A model generated the notes under the pieces. The model was not told the DNA's origin, did not search any database, and saw nothing but the letters and a program-made list of their open reading frames with translations. From positions 1 through 11,804 of the forward strand of contig JABMDH010000017.1 of the NCBI GenBank assembly GCA_015904075.1: a DNA stretch of 11,804 bases, given 5' to 3'. The translations under genes and the position numbers were made by a program. Shown here one piece after another: positions 55 to 11,804 of this stretch (its first letter is position 1; each line of letters begins with the position of its first letter). This stretch comes from Nitrospira sp. GTDB taxonomy: Bacteria; Nitrospirota; Nitrospiria; Nitrospirales; Nitrospiraceae.

Positions 55-351
55 TTACTCAATCGGTATCGTAGTTGCGGGAGGATAGCTTGGTTTTCGG
101 CGACTTACGAAATCCTGATCAATCGCCTTTAGGGCCTCCAACTGGGACATCAGCTCCTCAATGCGCCGATCGCGCTCCTTGACTTGCCGCTGGAGGGACT
201 TGACTAGATCCGATTCGATGGCAACCGATTCACTTCTCTGCACATTCTTGGACGCGGATACCGTAGAGAGTGATTCACATCCACCTAGAATGAAAGCGCA
301 GAACAAACCAATGACGGAAAAACTCCAGGGCATCTGGTAGATCATCTTCAT
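55..351 (-). CDS. Small coiled-coil lipoprotein, function unknown
   Basis: A 98-residue protein with a bacterial lipoprotein signal: a hydrophobic stretch at about residues 9-22 is followed by the lipobox ILGGC, with the acylated Cys at residue 25. The next residue is Glu, which favours outer-membrane sorting. After a Ser-rich linker, residues about 47-78 are rich in Lys, Arg, Glu and Leu with heptad-like spacing and probably form a coiled coil; the tail is Pro-rich. It may be a periplasmic spacer or scaffold, but I do not recognise a named family. The start is the first ATG; no strong Shine-Dalgarno sequence precedes it, and an ATG two codons later is an alternative. It is divergent from the Adhesin_E-like gene to its right. 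A heavily decayed partial copy lies at about 2789-2968. The gene call is fairly safe; the function is open. Confidence 0.72.
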   Translation of the reverse strand: MKMIYQMPWSFSVIGLFCAFILGGCESLSTVSASKNVQRSESVAIESDLVKSLQRQVKERDRRIEELMSQLEALKAIDQDFVSRRKPSYPPATTIPIE

Positions 352-666
352 TTTAAAAACATCTCACGACCCCTCACATCGCGCAAGAGCAATTTCAAAT
401 CTCTCTATCTTCCAAGATCGACAGCGGCTCATCACAAGCACAGGGACAAATATCCAAGAAAACAAAAGATGGCTGGCCTCCGGGATGAGTGACAGGGTTG
501 CGACTTAGCAGAATGTCGCCTCAGGCATCGAAATCTGCGAGACGTTCAGCGGGTAGCATGAGCTTTTCTACAACCTGTTAGAGCGGCTGCCCTTGCGTCT
601 ATCGACGACAGAATCCTAAAATAGTCTCGCTACAGCCTTCCAATGCATATACCAGCAGACACCATC
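352..666. other. Divergent intergenic region, no gene seen
   Basis: These 315 bases separate the minus-strand lipoprotein from the plus-strand Adhesin_E-like gene. I see no convincing coding sequence or RNA gene. The left part (about 352-580) has no counterpart near the second copy. The right part (about 582-666) is clearly homologous to about 2970-3053 and carries the promoter-like pair described separately. Confidence 0.6.
593..622 (+). promoter_or_regulatory. Candidate sigma70-type promoter upstream of Adhesin_E-like gene, copy I
   Basis: TTGCGT (593-598) and TAAAAT (617-622) are separated by 18 bases. Both hexamers and the spacing are kept in the second copy (2979-3008), although nearby bases have changed. 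The -10 matches consensus at five of six positions; the -35 is weak. This is inferred from sequence only. Confidence 0.3.
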
Positions 667-1140
667 ATGGGCATACAACGCAATGTTCGCTATAGCCAAT
701 ATCCATTTATCAAGCACACTGCTGCCAGCCTCATTCTTTGCCTGCTATTACAGTGTTTGTTCCTGGCGTTCGGAGATCACCAGGCATCTGCGGAATGGGT
801 GACCGTTGAGAAGGCTTATCCGGTTCGTGAATTACAGACCCTCTACATTGATCCGGCGACTATACGCAGGGAAGGCAACCTTGTGGAGGTCTGGCAATTG
901 ACGGACTATAGGTGGATGCAAGGGGGGCCAAAAGCAACTCCCCGCTTTTTATCGACGACAACCCACAAACAGTTCGAATGCACGGATAAACGCCTTCGAC
1001 TATTGGCCTATACTGAGTTCTCGCACCGAATGGCTGCCGGTAACGCATCGAACGGTTATGTCGACAAGGATAGGTGGTTACCGGTTGAAGCGGATAGTAT
1101 CAATGAAGCGTTGTGGAACATTCTCTGTAGCCAGCAATAA
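667..1140 (+). CDS. Adhesin_E-like exported protein, copy I
   Basis: A 157-residue protein with an N-terminal signal peptide: a basic start, a Leu-rich core at about residues 22-36, and a probable cleavage after the Ala-Ser-Ala near residue 43. The mature part has the layout of the surface-adhesin E family (Adhesin_E): a YIDPATIRR motif, a VWQLTDYR strand, a Cys in CTDKRLR and a second Cys near the C terminus that could form a disulfide, and a late W.PV...S..E.LW segment. Haemophilus protein E binds host proteins, but environmental homologues have no established role, so only an exported location is claimed. The start at 667 matches the only possible start of the second copy; an upstream in-frame ATG at 643 exists. 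No clear Shine-Dalgarno sequence is visible. It is followed after 68 bases by the DUF1566 gene, the same gap as in the other copy, and differs from that copy at about 20 of 157 residues, mostly in the leader. Confidence 0.75.
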   Translation: MGIQRNVRYSQYPFIKHTAASLILCLLLQCLFLAFGDHQASAEWVTVEKAYPVRELQTLYIDPATIRREGNLVEVWQLTDYRWMQGGPKATPRFLSTTTHKQFECTDKRLRLLAYTEFSHRMAAGNASNGYVDKDRWLPVEADSINEALWNILCSQQ

Positions 1141-1208: not shown

Positions 1209-1781
1209 ATGCTTGCTAAATGGGTACTGATCACGGCTGGAATCGTTATAGTCGCTACAGGCATTTTGCTTTGGGGAAATGCATTGATGAGCACCCAAGC
1301 TACGACTGCGCCGGTTCGAGAAGAGGTGATTGCGGACATCATCCGCAACTGGCAGAATGCTCACCCGGCAGGGCAGCGGTTTAGCCTCCTACCCACCTTC
1401 AACAACGACGCAGTTTTTGACAAGGAAACCGGCCTTGTATGGGAATTATCGCCGCAGGCAGTAACTGTCACGTGGAACGAGGCCCGCACCACTTGTGTCA
1501 ATCGGGTAATAGGCGGACAAAAGGGGTGGCGGCTCCCTGCTCCAAGCGAAATGCGCAGTCTGGTGGGTCCGGCAGTCGATGCCCCAGGTCCAAACCTTCC
1601 CCCAGGCCACCCCTTTGTGAACGTCCAACCGACTTCCTATTGGACGGTCGTGCCGGAAGCAAACCAACCTTCCTACGCACGATATGTGGATGCGTTCCTG
1701 GGTAATGTGCTCAGCCTCGTCAGGGTTTACACATTTCCTGTGTGGTGCGTCCAAGGCCCTATGAATACCGATGCCTATTGA
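1209..1781 (+). CDS. Membrane-anchored DUF1566 (Lcl C-terminal-like) protein, copy I
   Basis: A 190-residue protein with one N-terminal membrane segment (about residues 5-24) and an exported domain. Residues about 67-184 carry hallmarks of the DUF1566/Lcl_C family: FDKETGLVWE, a VTWNEA...C helix, GWRLP...E..SLV, a PGHPF..VQ..YWT block, and a closing WCVQG. These C-type-lectin-like domains occur in many environmental exported proteins with unknown ligands. In-frame upstream sequence contains a stop, so the ATG at 1209 is the first usable start; it has no obvious Shine-Dalgarno sequence and may rely on coupling to the gene 68 bases upstream. Compared with its paralogue at 3596-4168 there are about 19 differences; 11 fall in the first 36 residues, and the exported domain is nearly invariant. 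The family call is good; the biochemical role is unknown. Confidence 0.8.
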   Translation: MLAKWVLITAGIVIVATGILLWGNALMSTQATTAPVREEVIADIIRNWQNAHPAGQRFSLLPTFNNDAVFDKETGLVWELSPQAVTVTWNEARTTCVNRVIGGQKGWRLPAPSEMRSLVGPAVDAPGPNLPPGHPFVNVQPTSYWTVVPEANQPSYARYVDAFLGNVLSLVRVYTFPVWCVQGPMNTDAY

Positions 1782-1810: not shown

Positions 1811-1878
1811 AGAGTGTCTTCGGCTACCGGGCCACTGTAGAATGCCGAGCGGTTTCAATTCCGGTGCAGGGGGAAGGG

Positions 1879-2241
1879 ATGATGAGTACACTGCGGGAAC
1901 AACTCGCGAAGGCGTTCCATGATACGCAGTCCTTCAAGTGGGATGCCGAGAAGGGATTTAAGCTGGCGTCCGGAGAAATCAGCCCTTTCTATGTCGATTG
2001 TCGCGCACTTGTGGCCCACCCGGAGGCCCGCCGGCTGGTGGCTGAGCTAGCCTATGCCAAACTTACGGGGATTGAACTGGACTGCCTCGGTGGACTCGAA
2101 ATCGGAGCGATCCCCATTGCGGTGACTATCTCGGACTTTGCCTGTGCGGCTACACATCAACGGCTGTGGAGAACCTTCGTGGTAAGAAAACAGGCCAAAG
2201 ATCACGGCTTGGGAAAACTGATCGAGGGAAGTATTCGATGA
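1879..2241 (+). pseudogene. pyrE: Truncated pyrE, 5' part (orotate phosphoribosyltransferase)
   Basis: The first 120 codons of orotate phosphoribosyltransferase, which makes OMP from orotate and PRPP in pyrimidine synthesis. The GFKLASGEISPFYVDCR substrate region and the RKQAKDHG catalytic-loop region are present. Homology to the intact copy at 5668-6249 stops at base 2237; the next codon pair is CGA TGA, so the frame closes at the junction. The PRPP-binding loop (VDDVLTSGG) and the rest of the fold are missing here and lie at 9812-10048. The start was chosen at the ATG behind a GGGGGAAGGG ribosome binding site; a GTG at 1864 is in frame but unlikely. Only eight of about 119 shared residues differ from the intact copy, so the break is recent relative to the duplication. 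Without the loop the product should be inactive. Confidence 0.85.
2224..2237. repeat. pyrE: 14-base direct repeat, left end of nested segment
   Basis: GAGGGAAGTATTCG, the last pyrE bases before the sequence switches to amoC. It recurs at 9812-9825 as the first pyrE bases of the 3' fragment, and at 6013-6026 inside the intact pyrE. The two outer copies flank the nested segment like a target-site duplication or an integration core. Confidence 0.8.
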
Positions 2242-2513
2242 TCCAGGTTCGCCAGGTTCCGATCCCGCGTCACCCAGAGCCAGCCGATCGTCACGGCAAA
2301 GAAGGCGGCATTGGCCAAAATGTTAAACCGCCACAGTCCCATCCACACGGATTCGAATTCCGGAGTCATCGAATCCAGACCGTGCGAGTACCCAAACGCC
2401 CGCTGGTACAACACCCAAAACACCCCGATCGCCAGCATCGCAAACCAGCCGATCTTCACGGGCTTGGAATCGTACCACTGCGAGATATCGTATCCCCTGT
2501 CAGAGGCTGCCAT
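2238..2513 (-). pseudogene. amoC: amoC fragment, N-terminal 92 codons (ammonia monooxygenase subunit C)
   Basis: Residues 1-91 read as the N terminus of AmoC, the membrane subunit of copper-dependent ammonia monooxygenase, which oxidises ammonia to hydroxylamine. Visible features are YDISQWYDSK (residues 8-17), a first membrane segment at about 22-38, the family-typical YSHGLDSMTPEFE (42-54) followed by VWMGLWR (56-62), and a second membrane segment at about 64-80 ending in WVTRDRNL. The frame then runs into antisense pyrE at base 2237 and has no AmoC sequence after it. The downstream helices with the Asp and two His copper ligands are absent, so the product cannot be active. An AAGGAGGA ribosome binding site supports the start. 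No other amo gene lies in the window. AmoC is preferred over PmoC from the context, but the fragment alone does not fully separate the two. Confidence 0.85.
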
Positions 2514-2520
2514 AGTTCAT

Positions 2521-2528
2521 TCCTCCTT
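2521..2528 (-). promoter_or_regulatory. amoC: Strong ribosome binding site of the amoC fragment
   Basis: On the minus strand this reads AAGGAGGA, seven bases before the ATG at 2513. It is the best Shine-Dalgarno sequence in the window. It shows that the fragment is a genuine gene start with its leader and not a random internal piece. Confidence 0.8.
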
Positions 2529-2788
2529 ATGTAAAATAAACAACTTTCAGCATTGTTCGAAGTTCTAATTCAAAAGGTAAAGGTAGTGAATGGGGCCGCT
2601 ATGAAGATCCCACTGCCTCTCATTCGTATGGAGATGGTACTCCATGAAAGTCTGCTTTGCAAGCATCCTCTCTACTTCGACCTTTCACAGAATTTGATTC
2701 TATCCTTTTCTCAAATCAATGACTTCTGAATGCAGGACACATATTGGCAACTGGCCTGGATTGAGATTTCGAACTGTACAAATAAAGC
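2529..2788. other. amoC upstream region, no gene seen
   Basis: AT-rich non-coding sequence upstream of the amoC fragment. It probably includes the amoC leader and promoter, but I cannot fix a convincing -35/-10 pair. A short hairpin with 6-base arms lies at 2628-2633 and 2640-2645. No tRNA or other RNA gene is recognisable. It has no visible counterpart in the first copy, whose equivalent would lie left of the window. Confidence 0.45.
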
Positions 2789-2968
2789 TCTTTGCCGATC
2801 TCTTAACGAGATCCTCTAACGCTTTGCCCACATACACAGTCGCGTACATAACGGGTGTCGTGATCGCATGGCAATAGATTGTTTATCAATGTCTTACGAG
2901 ATGATGGCCATCATTACATCATCTACTCTGGAACGTTCCTTCATTAATACGACGATCACACTCCTTGA
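2789..2968 (-). pseudogene. Decayed remnant of the coiled-coil lipoprotein gene
   Basis: About 180 bases align with positions 1-183, which cover the 3' half of the lipoprotein gene and its downstream flank. The last 40 bases match at roughly 29 positions by eye. On the minus strand the start of the remnant still reads KECDRRINE where the intact gene has KERDRRIEE, then reaches a TGA and shifts frame. The signal peptide, lipobox and first half of the coil are missing: the match ends at 2968 and continues directly with sequence homologous to about 582 onward. So the 5' half and most of the divergent intergenic region were deleted. There is no function to expect. Confidence 0.65.
2797..2813. repeat. 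Short perfect hairpin
   Basis: GATCTC and GAGATC pair across a TTAAC loop next to the remnant lipoprotein gene. It could be a leftover terminator, but it lacks a T-run and may be chance. Confidence 0.25.
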
Positions 2969-2978
2969 AGGGCTGCCC

Positions 2979-3008
2979 TTGCGTCTATTGACGACAGAGT
3001 CCTAAAAT
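2979..3008 (+). promoter_or_regulatory. Candidate sigma70-type promoter upstream of Adhesin_E-like gene, copy II
   Basis: TTGCGT (2979-2984), 18 bases, then TAAAAT (3003-3008): the same elements and spacing as at 593-622. Their preservation between diverged copies is the only support. Confidence 0.3.
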
Positions 3009-3053
3009 GGGCTCACTACTGGCTTCCTCTACCATGGGCCAGCAGACACCATC

Positions 3054-3527
3054 ATGGGTATACAACGCAATGTTCGCTATAGCCGACATCCGTTTATCAA
3101 GTACACTGCTGCCGGCCTCATTCCTTGCCTGCTGGTACCGTGTTTGTTGTTGGCGTTTGGAGTTCACCAGGCATCTGCGGAATGGGTAACCATTGAGAAA
3201 CCTTATCCGGTTCGTGAACTACAGACCCTCTACATTGATCCGGCGACCATACGCAGGGGAGGCAACCTTGTAGACGTCTGGCAATTGACGGACTATCGGT
3301 GGATGCAAGGGGGGCCAAAAGCGACTCCTCGATTTTTATCGACGACAATCCACAAGCAATTCGCATGCACTGACAAACGACTTCGGCTATTGGACTATAC
3401 TGAATTCTCGCACCGAATGGCTGCTGGCAACGCATCGAACGGTTATGTCGATAAGGACAGATGGCTGCCAGTTGAAGCGGATAGCATCAATGAAACGTTG
3501 TGGAACACTCTCTGTAACCAGCCATAA
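3054..3527 (+). CDS. Adhesin_E-like exported protein, copy II
   Basis: A 157-residue paralogue of the protein at 667-1140. The signal peptide (core about residues 20-36, cleavage after Ala-Ser-Ala) and the Adhesin_E-like mature domain are intact: YIDPATIRR, VWQLTDYR, CTDKRLR, a C-terminal Cys. About 20 residues differ from the first copy, several of them in the leader (Pro for Leu, Val for Asp), while long tracts of the mature domain are identical. No stop or frameshift is present, so it is likely functional. The ATG at 3054 is the start; no good Shine-Dalgarno sequence precedes it in either copy. It is followed 68 bases later by the DUF1566 gene. The ligand and role are unknown. Confidence 0.75.
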   Translation: MGIQRNVRYSRHPFIKYTAAGLIPCLLVPCLLLAFGVHQASAEWVTIEKPYPVRELQTLYIDPATIRRGGNLVDVWQLTDYRWMQGGPKATPRFLSTTIHKQFACTDKRLRLLDYTEFSHRMAAGNASNGYVDKDRWLPVEADSINETLWNTLCNQP

Positions 3528-3595
3528 CCCGGTACGGCGGGCCTCTCAAATCTCGCCGGTAACAGTCCACTTCGGTTCTCGTCACCACACACCCC

Positions 3596-4168
3596 ATGTT
3601 TTCTAAATGGGTACTGATCACCGCTGGAATTGTTATTATCGCCACAGGCCTTATCCTTTTTGGATATAAATTGATGCGCACACAAGCCACGATTGCACCA
3701 GAACGAGAAGAGGTAATTGCGGACATCATCCGGAACTGGCAGAATGCTCACCCGGCAGGACAGCGGTTCAGCCTCTTACCTACATTCAACAACGCCGCCG
3801 TTTTTGACAAAGAAACCGGCCTTGTGTGGGAATTATCGCCGCAGACAGCAACTGTCACGTGGAACGAGGCCCGCACCACCTGTGTCAACCGGGTGATAGG
3901 CGGACAAAAAGGGTGGCGGCTCCCTGCTCCAAGCGAAATGCGCAGTCTGGTGGGCCCGGCAGTCGATGCCCCAGGCCCAAACCTTCCCCCGGGCCACCCC
4001 TTTCTGAATGTCCAACCGACTTCCTATTGGACGGTCGTGCCGGAAGCAAATCAACCTTCCTACGCACGGTATGTGGATGCGTTCCTCGGTAATGTGCTCA
4101 GCCTCATCAAAATTTACACATTTCCCGTGTGGTGCGTCCAAGGCCCCATGAATACCGATGCCTCTTGA
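3596..4168 (+). CDS. Membrane-anchored DUF1566 (Lcl C-terminal-like) protein, copy II
   Basis: A 190-residue paralogue of the protein at 1209-1781, same length and no gaps. One membrane anchor (about residues 5-25) precedes an exported DUF1566 domain with FDKETGLVWE, GWRLPAPSEMRSLV, PGHPF, SYWT and WCVQG all kept. The anchor has diverged (residues 2-3, 15-28) while residues 37-168 differ from the first copy at only four places, the pattern of selection on the exported domain. Here the gene is followed by the DUF523/CbiX pair; in the first copy pyrE follows directly. Confidence 0.8.
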   Translation: MFSKWVLITAGIVIIATGLILFGYKLMRTQATIAPEREEVIADIIRNWQNAHPAGQRFSLLPTFNNAAVFDKETGLVWELSPQTATVTWNEARTTCVNRVIGGQKGWRLPAPSEMRSLVGPAVDAPGPNLPPGHPFLNVQPTSYWTVVPEANQPSYARYVDAFLGNVLSLIKIYTFPVWCVQGPMNTDAS

Positions 4169-4232
4169 GATACCGAGAAATCTGCTTCTGGTCGACAGGC
4201 CTGAGATCACATGATCATTGTCGTTGAATAAC

Positions 4233-5063
4233 ATGAAAGAGGGACAGGGTTCTGAAAACAGACGTTTACTAGAATCGCGGTCGGCATCGTGTCGCATCCG
4301 CCTTGGCATCAGCCGATGCCTGCTTGGCGACGCCGTCCGGTATGACGGCGGACACAAACATGACCGTTATTTGGCCGAAGTGCTATCTCGTGTGATTGAA
4401 TGGGTGCCAGTCTGCCCGGAAGTCGAAGCAGGGCTGGGAACGCCGCGTGAACCGATGCAACTGGTCGGTACTGTAGGACGGGCCAAATTGCTGACGCTCA
4501 CGACGAGACAAGACAGAACCAACATGTTAGAGTCTTTCTCTCACCGACGTATTTCCGAATTGAAATCGATGAATCTATCCGGCTACGTCTTTAAGGCGCG
4601 TTCGCCTAGCTGCGGCGTCGAACAAGTTCCATTGTACGATCGGGATGGCAACGTCACGCCTGGAGGCACAGGTCTCTTTGCACAGCTCTTTCGAAATGAG
4701 TTTCCGTTGATTCCTGTAACCGATGAAGGACATCTTGCCGATCCCATATCCCGCCAACACTTCCTCGAACAAGTGTTTGGCTATTCTCGCTGGCAGGCCC
4801 TAATGTGCGGCCCTATGACCCGACAACGTATCGCCCGATTCCATAGGAGAGAGGCCGAAGAATTGCAGAAACGTTCCCCCTCACATTATGTAATGCTGAG
4901 CCGTCTTGTTTCAGAGACTAGCCAATATCATCCCAACGACCTGGCGGCACGATATGGGCAAGTCTTCATGCAAGCGCTCAATGTTGCACCATCAACCCAC
5001 ATGCAGGCCGGTCTACGACATTCCAGGCACCAATACCCAATCCAAAAGGACACGTCACTATGA
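4233..5063 (+). CDS. DUF523 protein with partial DUF1722 domain
   Basis: About 276 residues. An N-terminal DUF523 domain shows IRLGISRCLLGDAVRYDGGHK, a VCPEVEAGLGTPRE block, ARSPSCGV and GTGLF; the three Cys of CLLG, CPE and SPSCG are all present and may bind a metal or react as thiols. A DUF1722-like segment follows (IARFHRREAEELQKRSPSHYVMLSRLV). The fused family normally carries roughly another 50-80 residues of DUF1722; here the C terminus is short and unlike the family after about residue 255. Its biochemical role is not established. The ATG at 4233 is chosen; a TTG at 4218 is an alternative and neither has a clear ribosome binding site. The stop overlaps the CbiX start by four bases (ATGA), so the two are translationally coupled. 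Copy I of the locus lacks both genes. Confidence 0.75.
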   Translation: MKEGQGSENRRLLESRSASCRIRLGISRCLLGDAVRYDGGHKHDRYLAEVLSRVIEWVPVCPEVEAGLGTPREPMQLVGTVGRAKLLTLTTRQDRTNMLESFSHRRISELKSMNLSGYVFKARSPSCGVEQVPLYDRDGNVTPGGTGLFAQLFRNEFPLIPVTDEGHLADPISRQHFLEQVFGYSRWQALMCGPMTRQRIARFHRREAEELQKRSPSHYVMLSRLVSETSQYHPNDLAARYGQVFMQALNVAPSTHMQAGLRHSRHQYPIQKDTSL

Positions 5064-5593
5064 GTCAATGCAAAGAAGGTGTCATTCTTGTCGGTCACGG
5101 TGGTATTCCGAAGGGATGCCCATCGGAATTGGTCAGCAAACTGAAGCGACTGGAAGGACAGCGGCGGTCGGCGGGGACACCGATGTCGGCGGAGGAACTC
5201 GAATTGGATACCAAGATCCGCCACTGGCCGAGAACACCCGAAACAGATCCCTATCAAACAGGTCTCGAATCAGTTGCTGGACAACTGCGCGCCGCACTGG
5301 GAAACGTACTCTTTGCCGTCGCGTACAACGAATTTTGCGCGCCGACTTTGGAAGAATCGATACAGGACCTCGTCCGGAAAGGTGCGACTGACATTACTGT
5401 GACCACAACCATGTTTACCCCAGGCGGGTCTCATTCAGAGATAGAGATTCCAGAAATCCTCGACCATGTACGGATACAGTATCCGGAGATCACCATCCGA
5501 TACGCCTGGCCATTTGATCTGAGTCTTGTCGCTAATACATTAGCGGAACAGGTCAGGCGCTTCTCTCAGAAGTCTCTTCACGCCATGTCCTAA
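5060..5593 (+). CDS. CbiX/SirB-type chelatase family protein
   Basis: A 177-residue single-domain member of the CbiX/SirB family, whose characterised members insert Co or Fe into sirohydrochlorin for cobalamin or siroheme. The N-terminal VILVGHGG motif provides the conserved His (residue 13), and TMFTPGGSHSEIEIPE supplies the second His (residue 125) and acidic residues, in the spacing expected of the short CbiX type. VAYNEFCAPTLEES is a further family-like block. The start overlaps the preceding stop by four bases and has AAGGA nine bases upstream. No other tetrapyrrole gene is nearby, so the metal and substrate cannot be fixed. It ends just before the conserved pyrE upstream sequence. Confidence 0.75.
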   Translation: MSQCKEGVILVGHGGIPKGCPSELVSKLKRLEGQRRSAGTPMSAEELELDTKIRHWPRTPETDPYQTGLESVAGQLRAALGNVLFAVAYNEFCAPTLEESIQDLVRKGATDITVTTTMFTPGGSHSEIEIPEILDHVRIQYPEITIRYAWPFDLSLVANTLAEQVRRFSQKSLHAMS

Positions 5594-5596
5594 AAT
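5591..5596 (+). promoter_or_regulatory. pyrE: Candidate -10 element upstream of intact pyrE
   Basis: TAAAAT overlapping the CbiX stop codon, with the following 70 or so bases conserved relative to the truncated pyrE. A good -35 is not seen, so pyrE may instead depend on readthrough from CbiX. Confidence 0.25.
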
Positions 5597-5667
5597 AGAA
5601 TATCTTCAGCTATCAGGCCACTGTAGAATACCGGCTGGCTTCGATTACGATGTACGGGGGGAAAGGG

Positions 5668-6249
5668 ATGATGGTTATGTTGCGGGAACAACTGGCGAAC
5701 GCGTTCCATGATACGCAGTCCTTCAAATGGGATGCCGAGAAGGGATTTAAGCTGGCGTCCGGCGAGATCAGCCCCTTCTATGTCGATTGTCGTGCGCTCG
5801 TGGCCCACCCGAAGGCCCGCCGGCTTGTGGCGGAGCTCGCCTATGACAAACTGGCAGGGATTGAACTGGACTGCCTCGGTGGGCTTGAAATCGGAGCAAT
5901 CCCCATTGCAGTGACGATCTCAGACTTTGCCTGTGCTGCCGCTCGTCAGCGGCTGTGGAGAACCTTCGTGGTAAGGAAACAGGCCAAAGATCACGGCTTG
6001 GGAAAACTGATCGAGGGAAGTATTCGCTCGGGTGATCGCGCTCTCATCGTGGACGATGTGCTCACGAGCGGTGGGTCACTGCTCAAAGCCGTCGCAGCCG
6101 CTCGAGAAGCCGGGTTACGAGTCGATCATGCGTTGGTGATAGTCGACCGTCAAGAACAGGACGGGAAAGCCCGGGTAGAACGGGAACAGCTCACACTCAT
6201 CAGCCTCCTCACGGTGCAAGACCTGCTCGACGCTATGAAACGATCCTAG
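5668..6249 (+). CDS. pyrE: Orotate phosphoribosyltransferase, intact copy
   Basis: 193 residues from the ATG behind a GGGGGGAAAGGG ribosome binding site (an in-frame ATG lies 18 bases upstream). The enzyme converts orotate and PRPP to OMP in cytosolic pyrimidine synthesis. Visible motifs: GFKLASGEISPFYVDCR near the N terminus, VVRKQAKDHG with the catalytic-loop Lys residues (about 102-110), and the PRPP-binding signature ALIVDDVLTSGGSLL (about 125-139). Length fits the family. It is the only uninterrupted copy in the window; the outer copy is split into 1879-2241 and 9812-10048. It is convergent with the lipoprotein gene 29 bases downstream. Confidence 0.95.
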   Translation: MMVMLREQLANAFHDTQSFKWDAEKGFKLASGEISPFYVDCRALVAHPKARRLVAELAYDKLAGIELDCLGGLEIGAIPIAVTISDFACAAARQRLWRTFVVRKQAKDHGLGKLIEGSIRSGDRALIVDDVLTSGGSLLKAVAAAREAGLRVDHALVIVDRQEQDGKARVEREQLTLISLLTVQDLLDAMKRS

Positions 6250-6258
6250 ACATCACTT

Positions 6259-6269
6259 ACAGACTCTGT
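6259..6269. promoter_or_regulatory. Palindromic motif ACAGA-N-TCTGT, left of lipoprotein gene
   Basis: A perfect 5-base inverted repeat around one base, between the pyrE stop and the lipoprotein stop. The same motif class occurs on the other side of the lipoprotein gene (6608-6622), and an exact match to this one occurs at 10060-10070 in the other copy. It could be a binding site or part of a weak convergent terminator. Confidence 0.3.
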
Positions 6270-6278
6270 CCCTCAGTA

Positions 6279-6596
6279 TTATCGGCACTGAAACTGAATC
6301 CCCCAGCGCCGTTCCTCTATGGCTTCTTCCTGCCCTTCGATCGGACTAATCACGCGTATCCGGCCTTTGGTTTCTCCTTCACGAACAATCTCATAGGATC
6401 GTTCGCCGCACTTTTTGTCGATAACGGTAAGGGCATCCTTACGGAATGAGGATAGGATGTAACCCTGTTCTCCCTTAAAGGGATACACCACCACGCCGCC
6501 ATTCTCGTGTTCTTGAATGAGCTTGGTCCCATCGGCACAACCGACAAGAGTGGACACTAGAGCCGCAACCGTCACTCTTGACCAGACTTTTCTCAT
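6279..6596 (-). CDS. Small lipoprotein, function unknown, copy II
   Basis: 105 residues starting at MRKVW. A basic start and hydrophobic core (about residues 7-17) lead to the lipobox LVGC with the acylated Cys at residue 19, followed by Ala-Asp. The mature part is short and soluble, with a GGVVVYPFKGEQG strand pair, a Cys in KKCG and a Cys next to the C-terminal Arg that may form a disulfide. The upstream in-frame ATG at 6650 would bury the signal peptide and overlap the rhodanese leader, so it is rejected. I do not recognise the family. It is divergent from the rhodanese gene and convergent with pyrE, an order kept in the other copy (10080-10397), from which it differs at six of 105 residues. 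Confidence 0.75.
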   Translation of the reverse strand: MRKVWSRVTVAALVSTLVGCADGTKLIQEHENGGVVVYPFKGEQGYILSSFRKDALTVIDKKCGERSYEIVREGETKGRIRVISPIEGQEEAIEERRWGIQFQCR

Positions 6597-6651
6597 GGCT
6601 CTATTATGAACAGAGTCTGTTCCGGTCTCAATATGCCTGGGAGGAAACATA
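6597..6651. promoter_or_regulatory. Shared divergent control region with palindrome
   Basis: 55 bases between the divergent lipoprotein and rhodanese starts. It holds GAACAGA-G-TCTGTTC at 6608-6622, a perfect inverted repeat with 7-base arms, and the rhodanese ribosome binding site GGGAGGAA. The palindrome is a plausible operator for one or both genes. In the other copy one arm base has changed (10409-10423). Confidence 0.35.
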
Positions 6652-7077
6652 ATGCGGTTCTATAGAATCGTCGCAGTCGGATGCCTGGTTGCCGCAAGCC
6701 TACTGTTCAGCGAAGTCGCCCAATCTCACCATTCGTATCTGCTGACTGTGCAACAATTGCAATCCGGTCTTTCCATCTCTCGATTCATGACCCAGAAAGG
6801 TTTCATATTAGTCGATGTCCGTTCCCCGGAGGAACATCTGGCCGGCAGCATCCCCGGCACCGACCGCAACATCGACTTCCGCGAGATCCAGTCGCGGCAT
6901 CGTGAGATCGGTGCAAAATTTGAGGATCATATCGTCGTCTATTGTCAATCAGGACGTCGGAGCAATATCGCGGCGGAGGCCCTGGCGGATCTCGGATATC
7001 GCCATGTGTACAATGTTGAGGGCAGCATGAACGCATGGATAGAAGCAGGGTTTCCGGTCGCACGATCGCAGCAGTAA
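6652..7077 (+). CDS. Periplasmic single-domain rhodanese, copy II
   Basis: 141 residues with a Sec signal peptide (core residues about 5-20, probable cleavage after AQS near residue 25) and one rhodanese domain. Family marks are LVDVRSPEEHLAGSIPGT (53-70), the active-site loop VVYCQSGRRS with catalytic Cys at residue 98, and the closing NVEGSMNAW...GFPV. Rhodaneses carry sulfane sulfur on this Cys and pass it to acceptors; in the periplasm the acceptor is unknown. A GGGAGGAA ribosome binding site fixes the start. The paralogue at 10453-10842 lacks twelve residues at the end of the domain, so this copy is the one most likely to be active. Confidence 0.88.
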   Translation: MRFYRIVAVGCLVAASLLFSEVAQSHHSYLLTVQQLQSGLSISRFMTQKGFILVDVRSPEEHLAGSIPGTDRNIDFREIQSRHREIGAKFEDHIVVYCQSGRRSNIAAEALADLGYRHVYNVEGSMNAWIEAGFPVARSQQ

Positions 7078-7215
7078 CCATTGTCCCCAACAGACAACGA
7101 CGACATATGGATCACTCTCCCCTTATCTCAATCGAGGGCCGCTCCTCAGACTTGGGAATATCTCCACTCGTTGGCCGATTGAGACGCAATGCGTGACGAT
7201 CTCGCACCGCTATTC

Positions 7216-8121
7216 TTAGCGTCGGCTGACACCGATAACTGTCGGCAATGGGATATGCGCGGACGTGCTCCCGCCAAACAAGGCCTTCCAGAATATTCGA
7301 TGCTCATTCTGCAGATTGCTCTGCCACAGTGACTCTGAAACAAGTAGGTCTGACGATGAGCCTCCATCCATAGCCATCGCCCGACGCACAACGGGCAACG
7401 TATCCCGAAGACATCGGCCGATATCGTACAGAGACGTCACGTCTCGGCTTTTAAAGATGAGAATCCGTCCCTGGTCCGTTTCAGCAATGATCGTTTGATA
7501 CGCCCGTTTCCCTGTCTCACGAACACGAATCGTCTTATTCCGGTCCAAGAGCATCAGCGCCTGGGCGGCCTCTTGATAGGGCGGATGTTGCTCATCAAAG
7601 GCCTCCACCGCCAAGTCAAGTACCCGAGCCTTCTTCAGACCTGGAGCCAAGGGCTCCGCGACGAATAATCCCTGCCACGTTGTGTGCCGGCGGCTTCCCA
7701 ATGACCGCCCGTCTTTATACAACAGGCCGAGATAGGCGAAGTTTTCACGAAATAACCCGGCGTTGAAAATGACATCATGGCCCGTCCGTTTCTGCCATTC
7801 TTCAATCGTCGGAGGATGTACAAGTTTTTCATGCGCATAGTGATGGATCACAAACCTGGCACGATCCGGATCGATCTCAATGGCCAACAGGGACGGCACG
7901 GCCGGACAAGGCTCGTCCGGATTCCACACTGACACAGCAACACCATCCGCAAGCTGTTCCCACTGGATGTTCTCAGCAAGCGCGAGGCACGGCAGCGCAC
8001 AGAGCGCAAGAACATAGCCGAATAGACGACCCACTTTTCCAGCGGCAACGGTCGGGAATCGCCGCCGTTCGATTGAATCGGAGGCTCCGCAGTGAACAGC
8101 TGGTGTGAAGTCGTCGATCAT
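7216..8121 (-). CDS. Phosphodiester glycosidase (NAGPA domain) family protein, copy II
   Basis: About 301 residues from the ATG at 8121. A hydrophobic export signal lies at about residues 32-50 and ends in ALAE, so the true start may be the GTG at 8034, which would give an ordinary signal peptide; the other copy has GCG there, which argues against it. The exported domain has the family marks of the NAGPA-type fold: VIFNAGLF near residue 120 and AMDGGSSSDLLV near residue 252, plus VIGVSRR at the end. Characterised relatives remove a capping sugar from a phosphodiester or process exopolysaccharide; the substrate here is unknown. It lies 53 bases downstream of the hybrid kinase stop on the same strand, so the two could be one transcript. 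Confidence 0.78.
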   Translation of the reverse strand: MIDDFTPAVHCGASDSIERRRFPTVAAGKVGRLFGYVLALCALPCLALAENIQWEQLADGVAVSVWNPDEPCPAVPSLLAIEIDPDRARFVIHHYAHEKLVHPPTIEEWQKRTGHDVIFNAGLFRENFAYLGLLYKDGRSLGSRRHTTWQGLFVAEPLAPGLKKARVLDLAVEAFDEQHPPYQEAAQALMLLDRNKTIRVRETGKRAYQTIIAETDQGRILIFKSRDVTSLYDIGRCLRDTLPVVRRAMAMDGGSSSDLLVSESLWQSNLQNEHRIFWKALFGGSTSAHIPLPTVIGVSRR

Positions 8122-8174
8122 GGCATATAGCCGATAGATCGTGGTCTGAATGGTTACCGGATCACTGTCCCTTG

Positions 8175-9761
8175 CTAACTGGATACAGCCGTGCTCGCCG
8201 GCCTGCAATCCAGAAGCTCGCGAATGGCCCTCGCCAGTGCCTCCGGAGTGAACGGCTTTTGAAGATACCCGCAGGCTGGATCTCCGGCACCGAGACCAAC
8301 ATCATCGGCATAGCCGGATATGAAGAAGAGTTTCAGTTCAGGCTTGATCACACGAAGGTGCTGGGCTAATTCCGTCCCATTCATTCCCGGCATTACCACA
8401 TCTGTGAGCAGAAGCTGGAGCCGTCCTATCTGCTGCGTACCGACAAGGCAGGCCTCCAAGCCGTGTTTGGCCTCGAAGACCCGATATCCGAGCTTGCGAA
8501 GTTCATCTCGAATCAGCCCCCGGACGCCCGCATCATCTTCGACCAGCAGAATAGTCTCATGACCGCTCATGGATGACGGCGCTACCTCCTGGCCATCTGC
8601 TCGATCCGGTTCCTCGATAATCCTCGGAAGGTAAATATCAAAGCGGGTGCCGCGCCCGATCGCGCTGGACACATCAAGCCCGCCACCGCTTTGCGTGACG
8701 ATGCCGAATACGGTGGAAAGTCCGAGTCCCGTACCTTTCCCTTCTTCCTTCGCCGTGAAAAATGGCTCAAACATATGAGCTTGGACATCCGGTGAAATCC
8801 CGCAGCCGGTGTCGGACACCGAAAGTTTCACGTAGGTGCCGGGAGGCAAGGGACTCAGATGATACATCGGCGTCCGGTCAATCTCGACCGAAGTGGTTTC
8901 GATGATCAGCGTTCCGCCCTTGGGCATGGCATCGCGTGCATTGACAACGAGATTCATGACGATCTGTTCGAGTTGCACGGGGTCTGTCTTGACTCGAAGA
9001 GGCTCCCGGCTTGCGCGTAAAACCAATTCGATATCTTCACCGATTAAACGTCGAAGCATCGTCTCAAAGTTGCCGATGACCGGATTCAGATCCAGTACCT
9101 TCGGCTCAGCCGGCTGCTTTCTGCTGAACGTCAGCAATTGTTTGATCAACGCCGCTGCGCGATCGCCGGCCTTTCGCATCTCTTCGATCTTGCCCCTCTC
9201 AGGATGCTCCGACGGCAAATCATTGAGCAACACTTGGCTATGGCCCATGATGACAGTGAGAATATTGTTAAAATCGTGTGCCAGTCCCCCGGCCAATCGG
9301 CCGACAGCCTCCAGCTTTTGCGCCTGACGAAGCTGTTGCTCGCTCTGGCGCAACGCCTCCTCGGCCCGCTTTCGCTCCATCCGATCGTGTCGTTCACGAA
9401 GCGCTCGTTGAATCGATGGAACAAGCCGGCCGATGCGTTGTTTCAAAATATAATCCGTGGCTCCGCGGTGCATGGTATCGATAGCAAGTTCCTCACCGAG
9501 CGTCCCGGAAACAAAAATAAACGGGACCTCAGGAGCCAGCTTGCGCGCAAGCTCAAGCGCGGCAGCACCATCGAATCCAGGAAGAGAATAGTCGGCCAGG
9601 ATCAGATCAATCAGGCCTTCTTTAAGGACTGCAACAAACGCCGCTCGACTTTCCACGCGGATCGGTGCGCAAGGAATTCCCCCTTCTGCCAACAGCGTGG
9701 CGATGAGGTCGGCATCTGTCTGATTATCCTCTAGTTGGAGGACTCGCAAAGGAGTGGTCAT
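8175..9761 (-). CDS. Hybrid histidine kinase, REC-HisKA-HATPase-REC
   Basis: About 528 residues from the ATG at 9761 (GGAAC about six bases upstream; a GTG at 9782 is in frame). Numbered from that GTG: receiver domain at about 11-128 with acidic pair E18/D19, phosphoacceptor D64 and K114; a charged helical linker at 130-157; HisKA with H169 in LAHDFNN; an HATPase domain with N box NLVVNARDAM (277-286), G1 DTGCGIS (324-330) and G2 GKGTGLGLS (348-356); and a second receiver at about 410-525 with E415/D416, D461 and K509. No membrane segment or PAS/GAF sensor is present, so input probably comes through the first receiver from a partner kinase. All phosphotransfer residues are there. The sequence only 50 bases upstream of its start is the pyrE 3' fragment, so its native promoter may have been lost. 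Confidence 0.92.
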   Translation of the reverse strand: MTTPLRVLQLEDNQTDADLIATLLAEGGIPCAPIRVESRAAFVAVLKEGLIDLILADYSLPGFDGAAALELARKLAPEVPFIFVSGTLGEELAIDTMHRGATDYILKQRIGRLVPSIQRALRERHDRMERKRAEEALRQSEQQLRQAQKLEAVGRLAGGLAHDFNNILTVIMGHSQVLLNDLPSEHPERGKIEEMRKAGDRAAALIKQLLTFSRKQPAEPKVLDLNPVIGNFETMLRRLIGEDIELVLRASREPLRVKTDPVQLEQIVMNLVVNARDAMPKGGTLIIETTSVEIDRTPMYHLSPLPPGTYVKLSVSDTGCGISPDVQAHMFEPFFTAKEEGKGTGLGLSTVFGIVTQSGGGLDVSSAIGRGTRFDIYLPRIIEEPDRADGQEVAPSSMSGHETILLVEDDAGVRGLIRDELRKLGYRVFEAKHGLEACLVGTQQIGRLQLLLTDVVMPGMNGTELAQHLRVIKPELKLFFISGYADDVGLGAGDPACGYLQKPFTPEALARAIRELLDCRPASTAVSS

Positions 9762-9811
9762 CAGAGTTCCATTCACAGTCACTTGCCGGAACCGGCTCCC
9801 TGCGGTGGAGG

Positions 9812-9825
9812 GAGGGAAGTATTCG
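9812..9825. repeat. pyrE: 14-base direct repeat, right end of nested segment
   Basis: Identical to 2224-2237. Bases before 9812 do not match pyrE; bases after it do. Removing 2238-9825 would rebuild a continuous pyrE reading frame. Confidence 0.8.
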
Positions 9826-10048
9826 CCCGGGCGATCGCGCTCTGATTGTGGACGATGTCCTCACAAGCGGCGGGTCACTGCTCAAAGCAGTCGCAGCCGC
9901 TCGTGAGGCTGGATTACGAGTCGATCATGCGTTGGTGATTGTCGACCGTCAAGAACAGGACGGGAAAGCCAGAGTGGAACGGGAACAGCTCTCACTCATC
10001 AGTCTCCTCACCGTGCAAGACCTGCTCGTCGCTCTCAAGCGACCATAA
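9812..10048 (+). pseudogene. pyrE: pyrE 3' part, detached from its 5' half
   Basis: 78 codons plus stop matching the end of orotate phosphoribosyltransferase, from EGSIR to the stop, including the PRPP loop LIVDDVLTSGGSLL. No start codon with a ribosome binding site lies upstream in frame, and bases before 9812 belong to the hybrid-kinase leader. Few residues differ from the intact pyrE (SLIS for TLIS, VALKRP for DAMKRS at the end). It joins the 5' part at 1879-2237 without loss or gain if the intervening segment is removed. It should not be active. Confidence 0.85.
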
Positions 10049-10059
10049 GACACCACCTT

Positions 10060-10070
10060 ACAGACTCTGT
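10060..10070. promoter_or_regulatory. Palindromic motif ACAGA-N-TCTGT, copy I
   Basis: Exact match to 6259-6269, at the same place between pyrE and the lipoprotein stop. Confidence 0.3.
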
Positions 10071-10079
10071 CCCTCATCG

Positions 10080-10397
10080 TTATCGGCACTGAAACTGTAT
10101 CCCCCAACGCCGTTCCTCTATGGCTTCTTCCTGCCCTTCGATCGGACTAATCACGCGTATCCGACCTTTCGTTTCTCCTTCACGAACGATCTCATAAGAT
10201 CGGTCGCCGCATTTCTTGTCGATAACTGTGAGGGCTTCCTTACGGAATGAGGATAGGATGGAACCCTGTTCTCCCTTAAAGGGATACACAACCACGCCAC
10301 CGTTCTCGTGTTCTTGAATGAGCTTGGCTCCATCGGCACAACCGACAAGAGTTGAAACTACGGCCGCAACAGTCACGCTTGACCAGACTTTTCTCAT
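10080..10397 (-). CDS. Small lipoprotein, function unknown, copy I
   Basis: 105 residues starting at MRKVW, paralogue of 6279-6596. The lipobox LVGC with Cys at residue 19, the GGVVVYPFKGEQG segment and both mature Cys residues are kept. The six differences are mostly conservative (Leu to Val, Asp to Glu, Glu to Asp), with Ser replacing Tyr in the middle. There is no stop or frameshift. The upstream in-frame ATG at 10451 is rejected because it would precede the signal peptide with unrelated residues and overlap the rhodanese start. Confidence 0.75.
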   Translation of the reverse strand: MRKVWSSVTVAAVVSTLVGCADGAKLIQEHENGGVVVYPFKGEQGSILSSFRKEALTVIDKKCGDRSYEIVREGETKGRIRVISPIEGQEEAIEERRWGIQFQCR

Positions 10398-10452
10398 GGT
10401 TCTATTATGAAGAGAGTCTGTTCCGGTCTCAATATGCCAGGGAGGAAACATG
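10398..10452. promoter_or_regulatory. Shared divergent control region, copy I
   Basis: Equivalent of 6597-6651. The palindrome here reads GAAGAGA-G-TCTGTTC (10409-10423), with one arm base changed, and the GGGAGGAA rhodanese ribosome binding site is kept. Confidence 0.3.
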
Positions 10453-10842
10453 ATGAGATTCTATAGAATCGTCGCGGTCGGCTGCCTGGTTGCCGCAAGC
10501 CTGACATTCGGTGAGGTTGCTCAATCCCACCATTCGTATCTGATGACCGTGCAACAATTGCAAGCCGGTCTTTCCATGGCTCGGTTCATGACCCAGAAAG
10601 GTTTCATATTGGTCGATGTTCGCTCGCCGGAGGAGCATCTGGCCGGCAGCATCCCCGGCACCGACCGCAATATCGACTTCCGCGAGATCCAGTCGCGTCA
10701 TCGTGAGATCGGCGCAAAACTGGAGGACCATATCGTCGTCTATTGCCAATCAGGACGTCGGAGCAATATCGCAGCGGAGACCCTGGCGGATCTCGGATAT
10801 CGCCATGTAGCAGGGTTTCCGGTCGTACGATCGCAGCAGTAG
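10453..10842 (+). CDS. Periplasmic rhodanese with a 12-residue internal deletion, copy I
   Basis: 129 residues, paralogue of 6652-7077. The signal peptide, LVDVRSPEEHLAGSIPGT and the active-site loop YCQSGRRS are intact. A 36-base in-frame deletion has removed YNVEGSMNAWIE between YRHV and AGFPV, the conserved last strand and helix of the rhodanese fold. The catalytic Cys remains, but packing of the domain is probably disturbed, so the protein may be inactive or on the way to a pseudogene. An ATG at 10450 directly before 10453 is also usable behind the GGGAGGAA site. Confidence 0.75.
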   Translation: MRFYRIVAVGCLVAASLTFGEVAQSHHSYLMTVQQLQAGLSMARFMTQKGFILVDVRSPEEHLAGSIPGTDRNIDFREIQSRHREIGAKLEDHIVVYCQSGRRSNIAAETLADLGYRHVAGFPVVRSQQ

Positions 10843-10983
10843 CCATTCCCCTCAATAGATAACGACGACATGTGTATCGTACTTCCCTTATCTCTAGCGA
10901 GGGGCCGTTCCACATGCTTTGCAGTATCTTCCCTCGTTGGCTGGCTGAGACGCAACGTGTGACGATTCTCGTACCACTATATC

Positions 10984-11804
10984 TTAGCGCCGGCTGACAC
11001 CGATGACCGTCGGTAGGGGGATGTGCGCGGAGGTGCTTCCACCAAACAAGGCCTTCCAGAAAACTTGATTCTCATACTGCTGGCGTCTCTGCCACAGTGA
11101 CTCCGAAACAAGTACGTCTGACGATGAGCCTCCGTCCATAGCCATCGCCTGACGCACGACGGACAACGTATCCCGAAGACATCGGCCAATATCATACAAA
11201 GACGTGATCTCTCGACTCTTGAAGATGAGAATACGTCCCTTGTCCGTTTCAGCAATGATCGTTTGATACGCCCGTTTCCCTGTCTGACGAACACGAATTG
11301 TCCTATTCCGGTCCAAGAGCATCAGCGCCTGGGCTGCCTCCTGATAGGGCGGATGTTGCTCATCAAAGGCCTCCACCGCCAAGTCGAGTACCCGAGCTTT
11401 CTTCACACCTGAAACCAAGGGCTCCGCGACGAATACTCCCTGCCATGTTGTGTGCCGACGGCTCCCCAATGACCGGCCGTCTTTATACAGCAAGCCGAGA
11501 TAGGCGAAGTTTTCACGAAATAAGCCCGCGTTGAAAATGACATCGTGGCCCGTCCGCTTCTCCCATTCTTCGATCGTCGGAGGCTGTGCAAGTTTTTCAT
11601 GCGCATAGTGATGGATGGCAAACCTGGCAAGATCCGGATCGATCTCAATGGCCAACAAGGACGGCACCGCCGGACAAAGCTCGCCTGGATTCCACACCGA
11701 CACAGCAACACCACCCGTAAGCTGTTCCCACTTGATATCCTCAGCAAAAGCGACACAGGGCAGCGTGCAAAACGCAAGAACATAGCCGCAAAGACGACTC
11801 GCTT
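10984..11804 (-). CDS. Phosphodiester glycosidase (NAGPA domain) family protein, copy I, partial
   Basis: The gene runs off the right edge; its start is outside the window. On the minus strand the frame stays open to the last base, reading a signal-peptide-like CGYVLAFCTLPCVAFAE and then DIKWEQL. VIFNAGLF, AMDGGSSSD and the VIGVSRR end are kept relative to 7216-8121. Differences cluster near the C terminus (RRQQYENQV for SNLQNEHRI). At the position of the possible GTG start in the other copy, this copy has GCG, so a start further upstream is needed. Whether a kinase gene follows beyond the edge, as in the other copy, cannot be seen. Confidence 0.78.
   Translation of the reverse strand, partial: ASRLCGYVLAFCTLPCVAFAEDIKWEQLTGGVAVSVWNPGELCPAVPSLLAIEIDPDLARFAIHHYAHEKLAQPPTIEEWEKRTGHDVIFNAGLFRENFAYLGLLYKDGRSLGSRRHTTWQGVFVAEPLVSGVKKARVLDLAVEAFDEQHPPYQEAAQALMLLDRNRTIRVRQTGKRAYQTIIAETDKGRILIFKSREITSLYDIGRCLRDTLSVVRQAMAMDGGSSSDVLVSESLWQRRQQYENQVFWKALFGGSTSAHIPLPTVIGVSRR

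Follow-up and report, generated by a model that had tools for sequence, protein, structure and literature searches.

Some transposons, casposons among them, have long target-site duplications and are flanked by direct repeats of about 14 bp, and the locus described here resembles them in that a segment is flanked by direct repeats of this length. Unlike them, the stretch examined carries neither a Cas1-like nor another integrase among its scanned reading frames and lacks terminal inverted repeats, and the segment is ordinary chromosomal DNA. A second group of comparable cases is computational. Two assembly studies treat chimeric contigs as an assembler-dependent error in benchmarks (PMC11261854) and describe chimeras of two organisms as an error termed rare, and the duplicated overlap at a scaffold join as another, with such overlaps flanking Ns (PMC7111523). 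The locus is like these metagenome chimeras and local assembly errors (PMC7111523, PMC11261854) in that two related organisms would share one contig and an overlap appears twice; it differs from what is described there in that the overlapping ends do not flank Ns and would have an entire 7.6-kb contig between them. Finally, partial amoC genes were found at scaffold ends in a comammox Nitrospira bin (PMC4863621). There, as here, a contig of the amo region terminates inside amoC, but in the bin this is a plain scaffold end, whereas in the present case the fragment abuts pyrE.

The DNA analyzed (hereafter, the window; 11,804 nt) is from a Nitrospira of the ammonia-oxidizing type and consists of three segments: S1 (1–2237), S2 (2238–9811), and S3 (9812–11804). 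S1 and S3 hold the two parts of one locus (copy I), and S2 holds a second version of it (copy II). The segment between the outer repeats is 7,574 nt long; the end at 9825 given in the earlier note takes in the second repeat. The features, from left to right, are as follows.

55–351, minus strand: 98-aa ORF left of copy I, S1 (ORF listing; no Pfam family).
643–1140, plus strand: Adhesin_E protein, copy I, S1 (PF16747, 1.4e-27).
1209–1781, plus strand: Lcl_C protein, copy I, S1 (PF07603, 4.6e-17).
1864–2237, plus strand: 5′ part of pyrE copy I, S1 (aligned with copy II and P0001).
2188–2237, plus strand: 50-nt run in which copy I equals copy II (5977–6026), ending at the left joint (sequence comparison).
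2224–2237, plus strand: 14-mer GAGGGAAGTATTCG at the left joint, end of S1 (repeat search).
2238–2513, minus strand: amoC fragment, first 92 codons, left end of S2 (PF04896; AmoC at 1.9e-27 for the ORF 2202–2513).
3054–3527, plus strand: Adhesin_E protein, copy II, S2 (PF16747).
3596–4168, plus strand: Lcl_C protein, copy II, S2 (PF07603).
4218–5063, plus strand: DUF523 / 2-thiouracil desulfurase family protein, S2 only (PF04463).
5060–5593, plus strand: CbiX family protein, S2 only (PF01903).
5650–6249, plus strand: intact pyrE copy II, S2 (PF00156; alignment).
6013–6026, plus strand: 14-mer GAGGGAAGTATTCG within the undisturbed pyrE copy II of S2 (repeat search).
6279–6650, minus strand: 123-aa ORF, copy II (kept beside pyrE in relatives; no Pfam family).
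6652–7077, plus strand: rhodanese, copy II (PF00581).
7216–8208, minus strand: NAGPA (phosphodiester glycosidase) protein, copy II (PF09992).
8175–9782, minus strand: hybrid histidine kinase; S2 stops 29 nt beyond its listed start (PF00072, PF02518, PF00512).
9812–9825, plus strand: 14-mer GAGGGAAGTATTCG at the right joint, start of S3 (repeat search).
9812–10048, plus strand: 3′ part of pyrE copy I, S3 (joined frame; aligned with copy II and P0001).
10080–10451, minus strand: 123-aa ORF, copy I, S3 (ORF listing).
10450–10842, plus strand: rhodanese, copy I, S3 (PF00581).
10984–11804, minus strand: NAGPA protein, copy I, S3, running past the window edge (PF09992 for 10984–11703).

The earlier note had claimed that pyrE is split at one point, with the same 14 bases at either end of the break, and this holds: the 14-mer stands at 2224 and again at 9812, the 5′ part in S1 runs into a stop at 2241 when left unjoined, and connecting 1–2237 to 9826 onward yields a single open pyrE frame. 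Its description of the inner segment as a second, diverged locus with an intact pyrE of its own (copy II, 5650–6249) is likewise borne out. The 300-nt blocks common to the two loci are 88–92% identical, and the PyrE proteins share 93% identity. It had also suggested a search for an unbroken copy I, and an unbroken protein of that type was found: P0001 from a public protein set (41 member sequences, 2 contigs, the longest 30,682) is an intact PyrE, 97% identical to joined copy I and identical to it past the joint. Thus, an intact pyrE of the copy-I type exists elsewhere, and the restored frame is more than chance. The left joint falls on the final base of the 50-nt run, the second-longest exact run between the copies; of the 4,216 positions of copy I, 12 are no more than 1 nt away from the end of a run of at least 50 nt, a figure to be read as a guide and not as a test, as the coincidence was spotted after the fact. 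At the right joint, no repeat was found on the kinase (S2) side. A further difference between the copies lies in the rhodanese gene, which in copy I (10450–10842) is 36 nt shorter in frame (near 10808), a loss that shortens the domain at its C-terminal end.

S2 is an ordinary Nitrospira locus, amoC on the minus strand, Lcl-DUF523-CbiX-pyrE on the plus strand, and NAGPA and kinase on the minus strand, truncated at both ends. In the 80 Nitrospira pyrE loci retained from 155, the usual order starts with Lcl or other genes and an optional DUF523-CbiX pair, followed by pyrE (plus), the 123-aa ORF (minus), an optional rhodanese, NAGPA (minus), and kinase (minus). Upstream of pyrE, amoC is present on the fetched stretch of 15 of these 80 loci, and also in five of six long-contig regions (L094–L098, not L093). 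Homology of S2 to the amoC of relatives starts at 2238–2242 and spans 92 codons; the full gene has about 268–270 codons in nine of ten loci read, and the tenth ends with its contig. On the right, the window tracks its relatives to just beyond the kinase start and then departs: where the six relatives compared continue into another conserved sequence, the window continues into pyrE.

Gene content and affinity vary within this neighborhood. The DUF523-CbiX pair, present in copy II (4169–5649) and absent from copy I (1782–1863), occurs in both states among related loci (without, L014–L016 and L022; with, L011, L013, and L020). The affinity of 5650–9782 is mixed, with PyrE nearest to loci lacking a rhodanese match (84–86%, L001–L005) and the kinase nearest to loci having one (81% L042, 79% L047). 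In one genome (G032, L091:6228–7454), a single 452-aa frame apparently unites DUF523 with the C-terminal two thirds of pyrE, CbiX being absent between them.

The gene in which S2 begins is a repeated one. A match to amoC was found in 59 of the 76 genomes searched, with six matches each in G067, G068, and G011, and in these 76 genomes, at least 27 matches start within 5 nt of the first base of a contig. Among the 15 pyrE loci with amoC, nine start no more than 3 nt from a contig tip that lies inside amoC; L029 is a tenth case, with its tip another 93 nt into the gene. In an ungapped comparison, in which one G067 copy (L138) was misaligned, four of five amoC copies of G068, four of five of G011, and two of G067 had 97–100% identity in all 60-nt windows but the first; copies outside these near-identical sets diverge more, and in G067 the picture varies by pair. 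The idea that the copies turn identical exactly at codon 92 was discarded, because four of the five G068 copies are identical from the second window on and G067 depends on the pair. Nor is a break hot spot at that codon claimed: tips inside amoC do lie near codon 93 (G042), 94–96 (G059), and 97–100 (G015), but the partial amoC matches listed end at many codons. The left end of S2 is, hence, inside a repeated gene, yet at no special point of it. That S2 starts inside amoC, where related contigs often end, is absent from the earlier note and points to an assembly join.

Unusual amoC forms were encountered along the way. G022 has an apparently internally deleted amoC (L129:8290–8679), in which about 93 codons are joined to the C-terminal end, far from the tips of a 403-kb contig; an AmoC-like protein on an 841-base contig (P0121) departs from the family after NLANLD, no more than a codon away from the point at which the amoC fragment in the window ends. 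No sign of the amoC-pyrE joint was seen in five sequences read of the 46 matched AmoC proteins.

The earlier note regarded the two copies as paralogs of one genome, and here the relatives speak against it. Of 79 Nitrospira genomes, 71 had a pyrE match, and two close full copies occurred in none of them; a second search of the same 79 genomes from another center left this tally unchanged. The second match in G041 is a relative with 34% identity. Partial pyrE genes in G044 and G051 were considered as split genes and set aside, both being at contig edges and the two matches in G044 being halves. Moreover, copy I 11–182 aligns with S2 2800–2968, the amoC–Adhesin_E spacer (score 87; the best of 500 shuffles reached 36). 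Copy I, therefore, probably also lies beside amoC, just past the left edge of the window. With this spacer common to both and pyrE single-copy in relatives, the copies look like orthologs from two organisms. Across seven common gene pieces, dS is 0.25–0.42 and dN/dS 0.07–0.19, with the lowest ratios in the two halves of the split pyrE, a pattern in keeping with functional orthologs from two sister species and with a split either very recent or not real. An old duplication of the locus within one genome, rearranged later, would likewise place two diverged copies, both under purifying selection, on one contig. Given that such a pair is missing from all 71 genomes that matched pyrE, and that the joints fit no boundary of homology between the copies, we consider it very improbable.

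If the segment did enter a chromosome, an enzyme might have put it there. Direct target repeats at both ends, as expected of a transposon, are present, and a transposase or integrase acting in trans could have produced them, either by cutting with a 14-bp stagger or by using a core site of 14 bp. The remaining evidence runs against such an enzyme. The earlier note saw no recombinase, and a Pfam scan of 20 of the 46 ORFs of at least 70 aa in the window agrees, as it returned no recombinase, transposase, or integrase family. Terminal inverted repeats are absent: the first and last 80 nt score 18 against each other, a value reached by 138 of 500 shuffles, and the repeat search of the window showed no inverted pair linking the segment ends. 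Neither a tRNA nor an Rfam match was found in the window. Searches of plasmids and phages returned no near match to the segment (AmoC matched on one Nitrosomonas plasmid, at 55% identity only), and the left joint occurred in none of the viral contigs. The earlier note had proposed a search for other segments bounded by the repeat; the 14-mer is found in 0 of 147 other loci. An enzyme supplied in trans is, thus, very improbable. Integration of a circle finds no better footing, with no integrase family among the 20 scanned ORFs, no tRNA, and the 14-mer unseen as an att core in those 147 loci. Specifically, a circle entering by single crossover in pyrE predicts a hybrid pyrE at both ends and a kinase/amoC joint in mid-segment; the actual arrangement is an intact inner pyrE with three 14-mers, and this form was rejected on anatomy.

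The lack of a recombinase and of terminal inverted repeats, together with the plain truncated ends, makes capture or template switching the likeliest route for a real insertion. In the first case, a staggered break in pyrE would have taken up a linear 7.6-kb fragment of a sister Nitrospira, reaching from amoC over pyrE to the kinase; in the second, the fragment would have been copied in. Fill-in of a 14-nt overhang, or resumption 14 nt upstream, would leave the direct repeat, and the cell would remain prototrophic via the pyrE on the inserted piece. Exact 14-bp repeats at both ends, the otherwise intact halves of copy I, S2 ends that are plain truncations, as for a broken fragment, and the absence of recombinase families from the scanned ORFs all suit such a repair event. 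It leaves unaccounted for, however, that the left joint sits exactly at the end of the 50-nt run, and one end of the piece lies inside amoC, a frequent contig end. Long homology at ∼90% should, we infer, favor homologous exchange instead. Nor was a second genome with the split found: the pyrE matches in 71 of 79 genomes are unsplit except at contig edges, and the best 120 of 982 relatives of the 5′ half are 187–206 aa long except for P0173, the sole short one among them, which its source names partial. An insertion by this route we regard as unlikely, and the same holds for the self-complementing replacement it would amount to, in which a 7.6-kb piece from a sister species entered pyrE without a recombinase and broke and substituted the gene in one step. 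All forms of a real insertion taken together are only slightly less doubtful.

We favor reading the window as a chimeric contig in which metagenome assembly combined two sister Nitrospira loci, and assign this a probability of roughly 0.65; the involvement of two organisms and the computational origin of the joints are both inferred. S1 and S3 would be two pieces of the pyrE locus of one organism, Nitrospira A, and S2 would be the ortholog of that locus in a sister, Nitrospira B, with DNA differing by about 10% and a contig beginning inside the multicopy amoC. Assembly or scaffolding would have put the B contig between the two ends of the A locus, and, with these ends lying within the 50-nt run common to both and overlapping by 14 nt, an apparent 14-bp target-site duplication would result. 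Joints of a chimera are expected at repeats or common runs, and the left joint has amoC on one side and the end of the 50-nt run on the other. Several points count against the chimera. An overlap of 14 nt is short for an assembler, one real insertion would leave just such a pair of joints, 14 nt apart in a single gene, Ns are absent from both joints, and no repeat was found on the kinase side of the right joint. In addition, the amoC copies of the genomes compared show no onset of identity exactly at codon 92, and chimeras of two organisms are termed rare (PMC7111523). If the contig is chimeric, the argument of the earlier note, that an insertion supplying a second pyrE would be selectively tolerable, is left with nothing to explain.

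Were the repair event true, it would stand as a strikingly clean example of a large piece of DNA captured illegitimately by one nitrifier from another living alongside it; a large foreign segment would have entered the chromosome by end capture despite long homology, and the disrupted gene would have been replaced at once. If, as we favor, the contig is a chimera, the lesson is a practical one: amoC in these Nitrospira is a repeat within which contigs end, and direct repeats of 14 bases that bracket a diverged second copy can mimic a target-site duplication.
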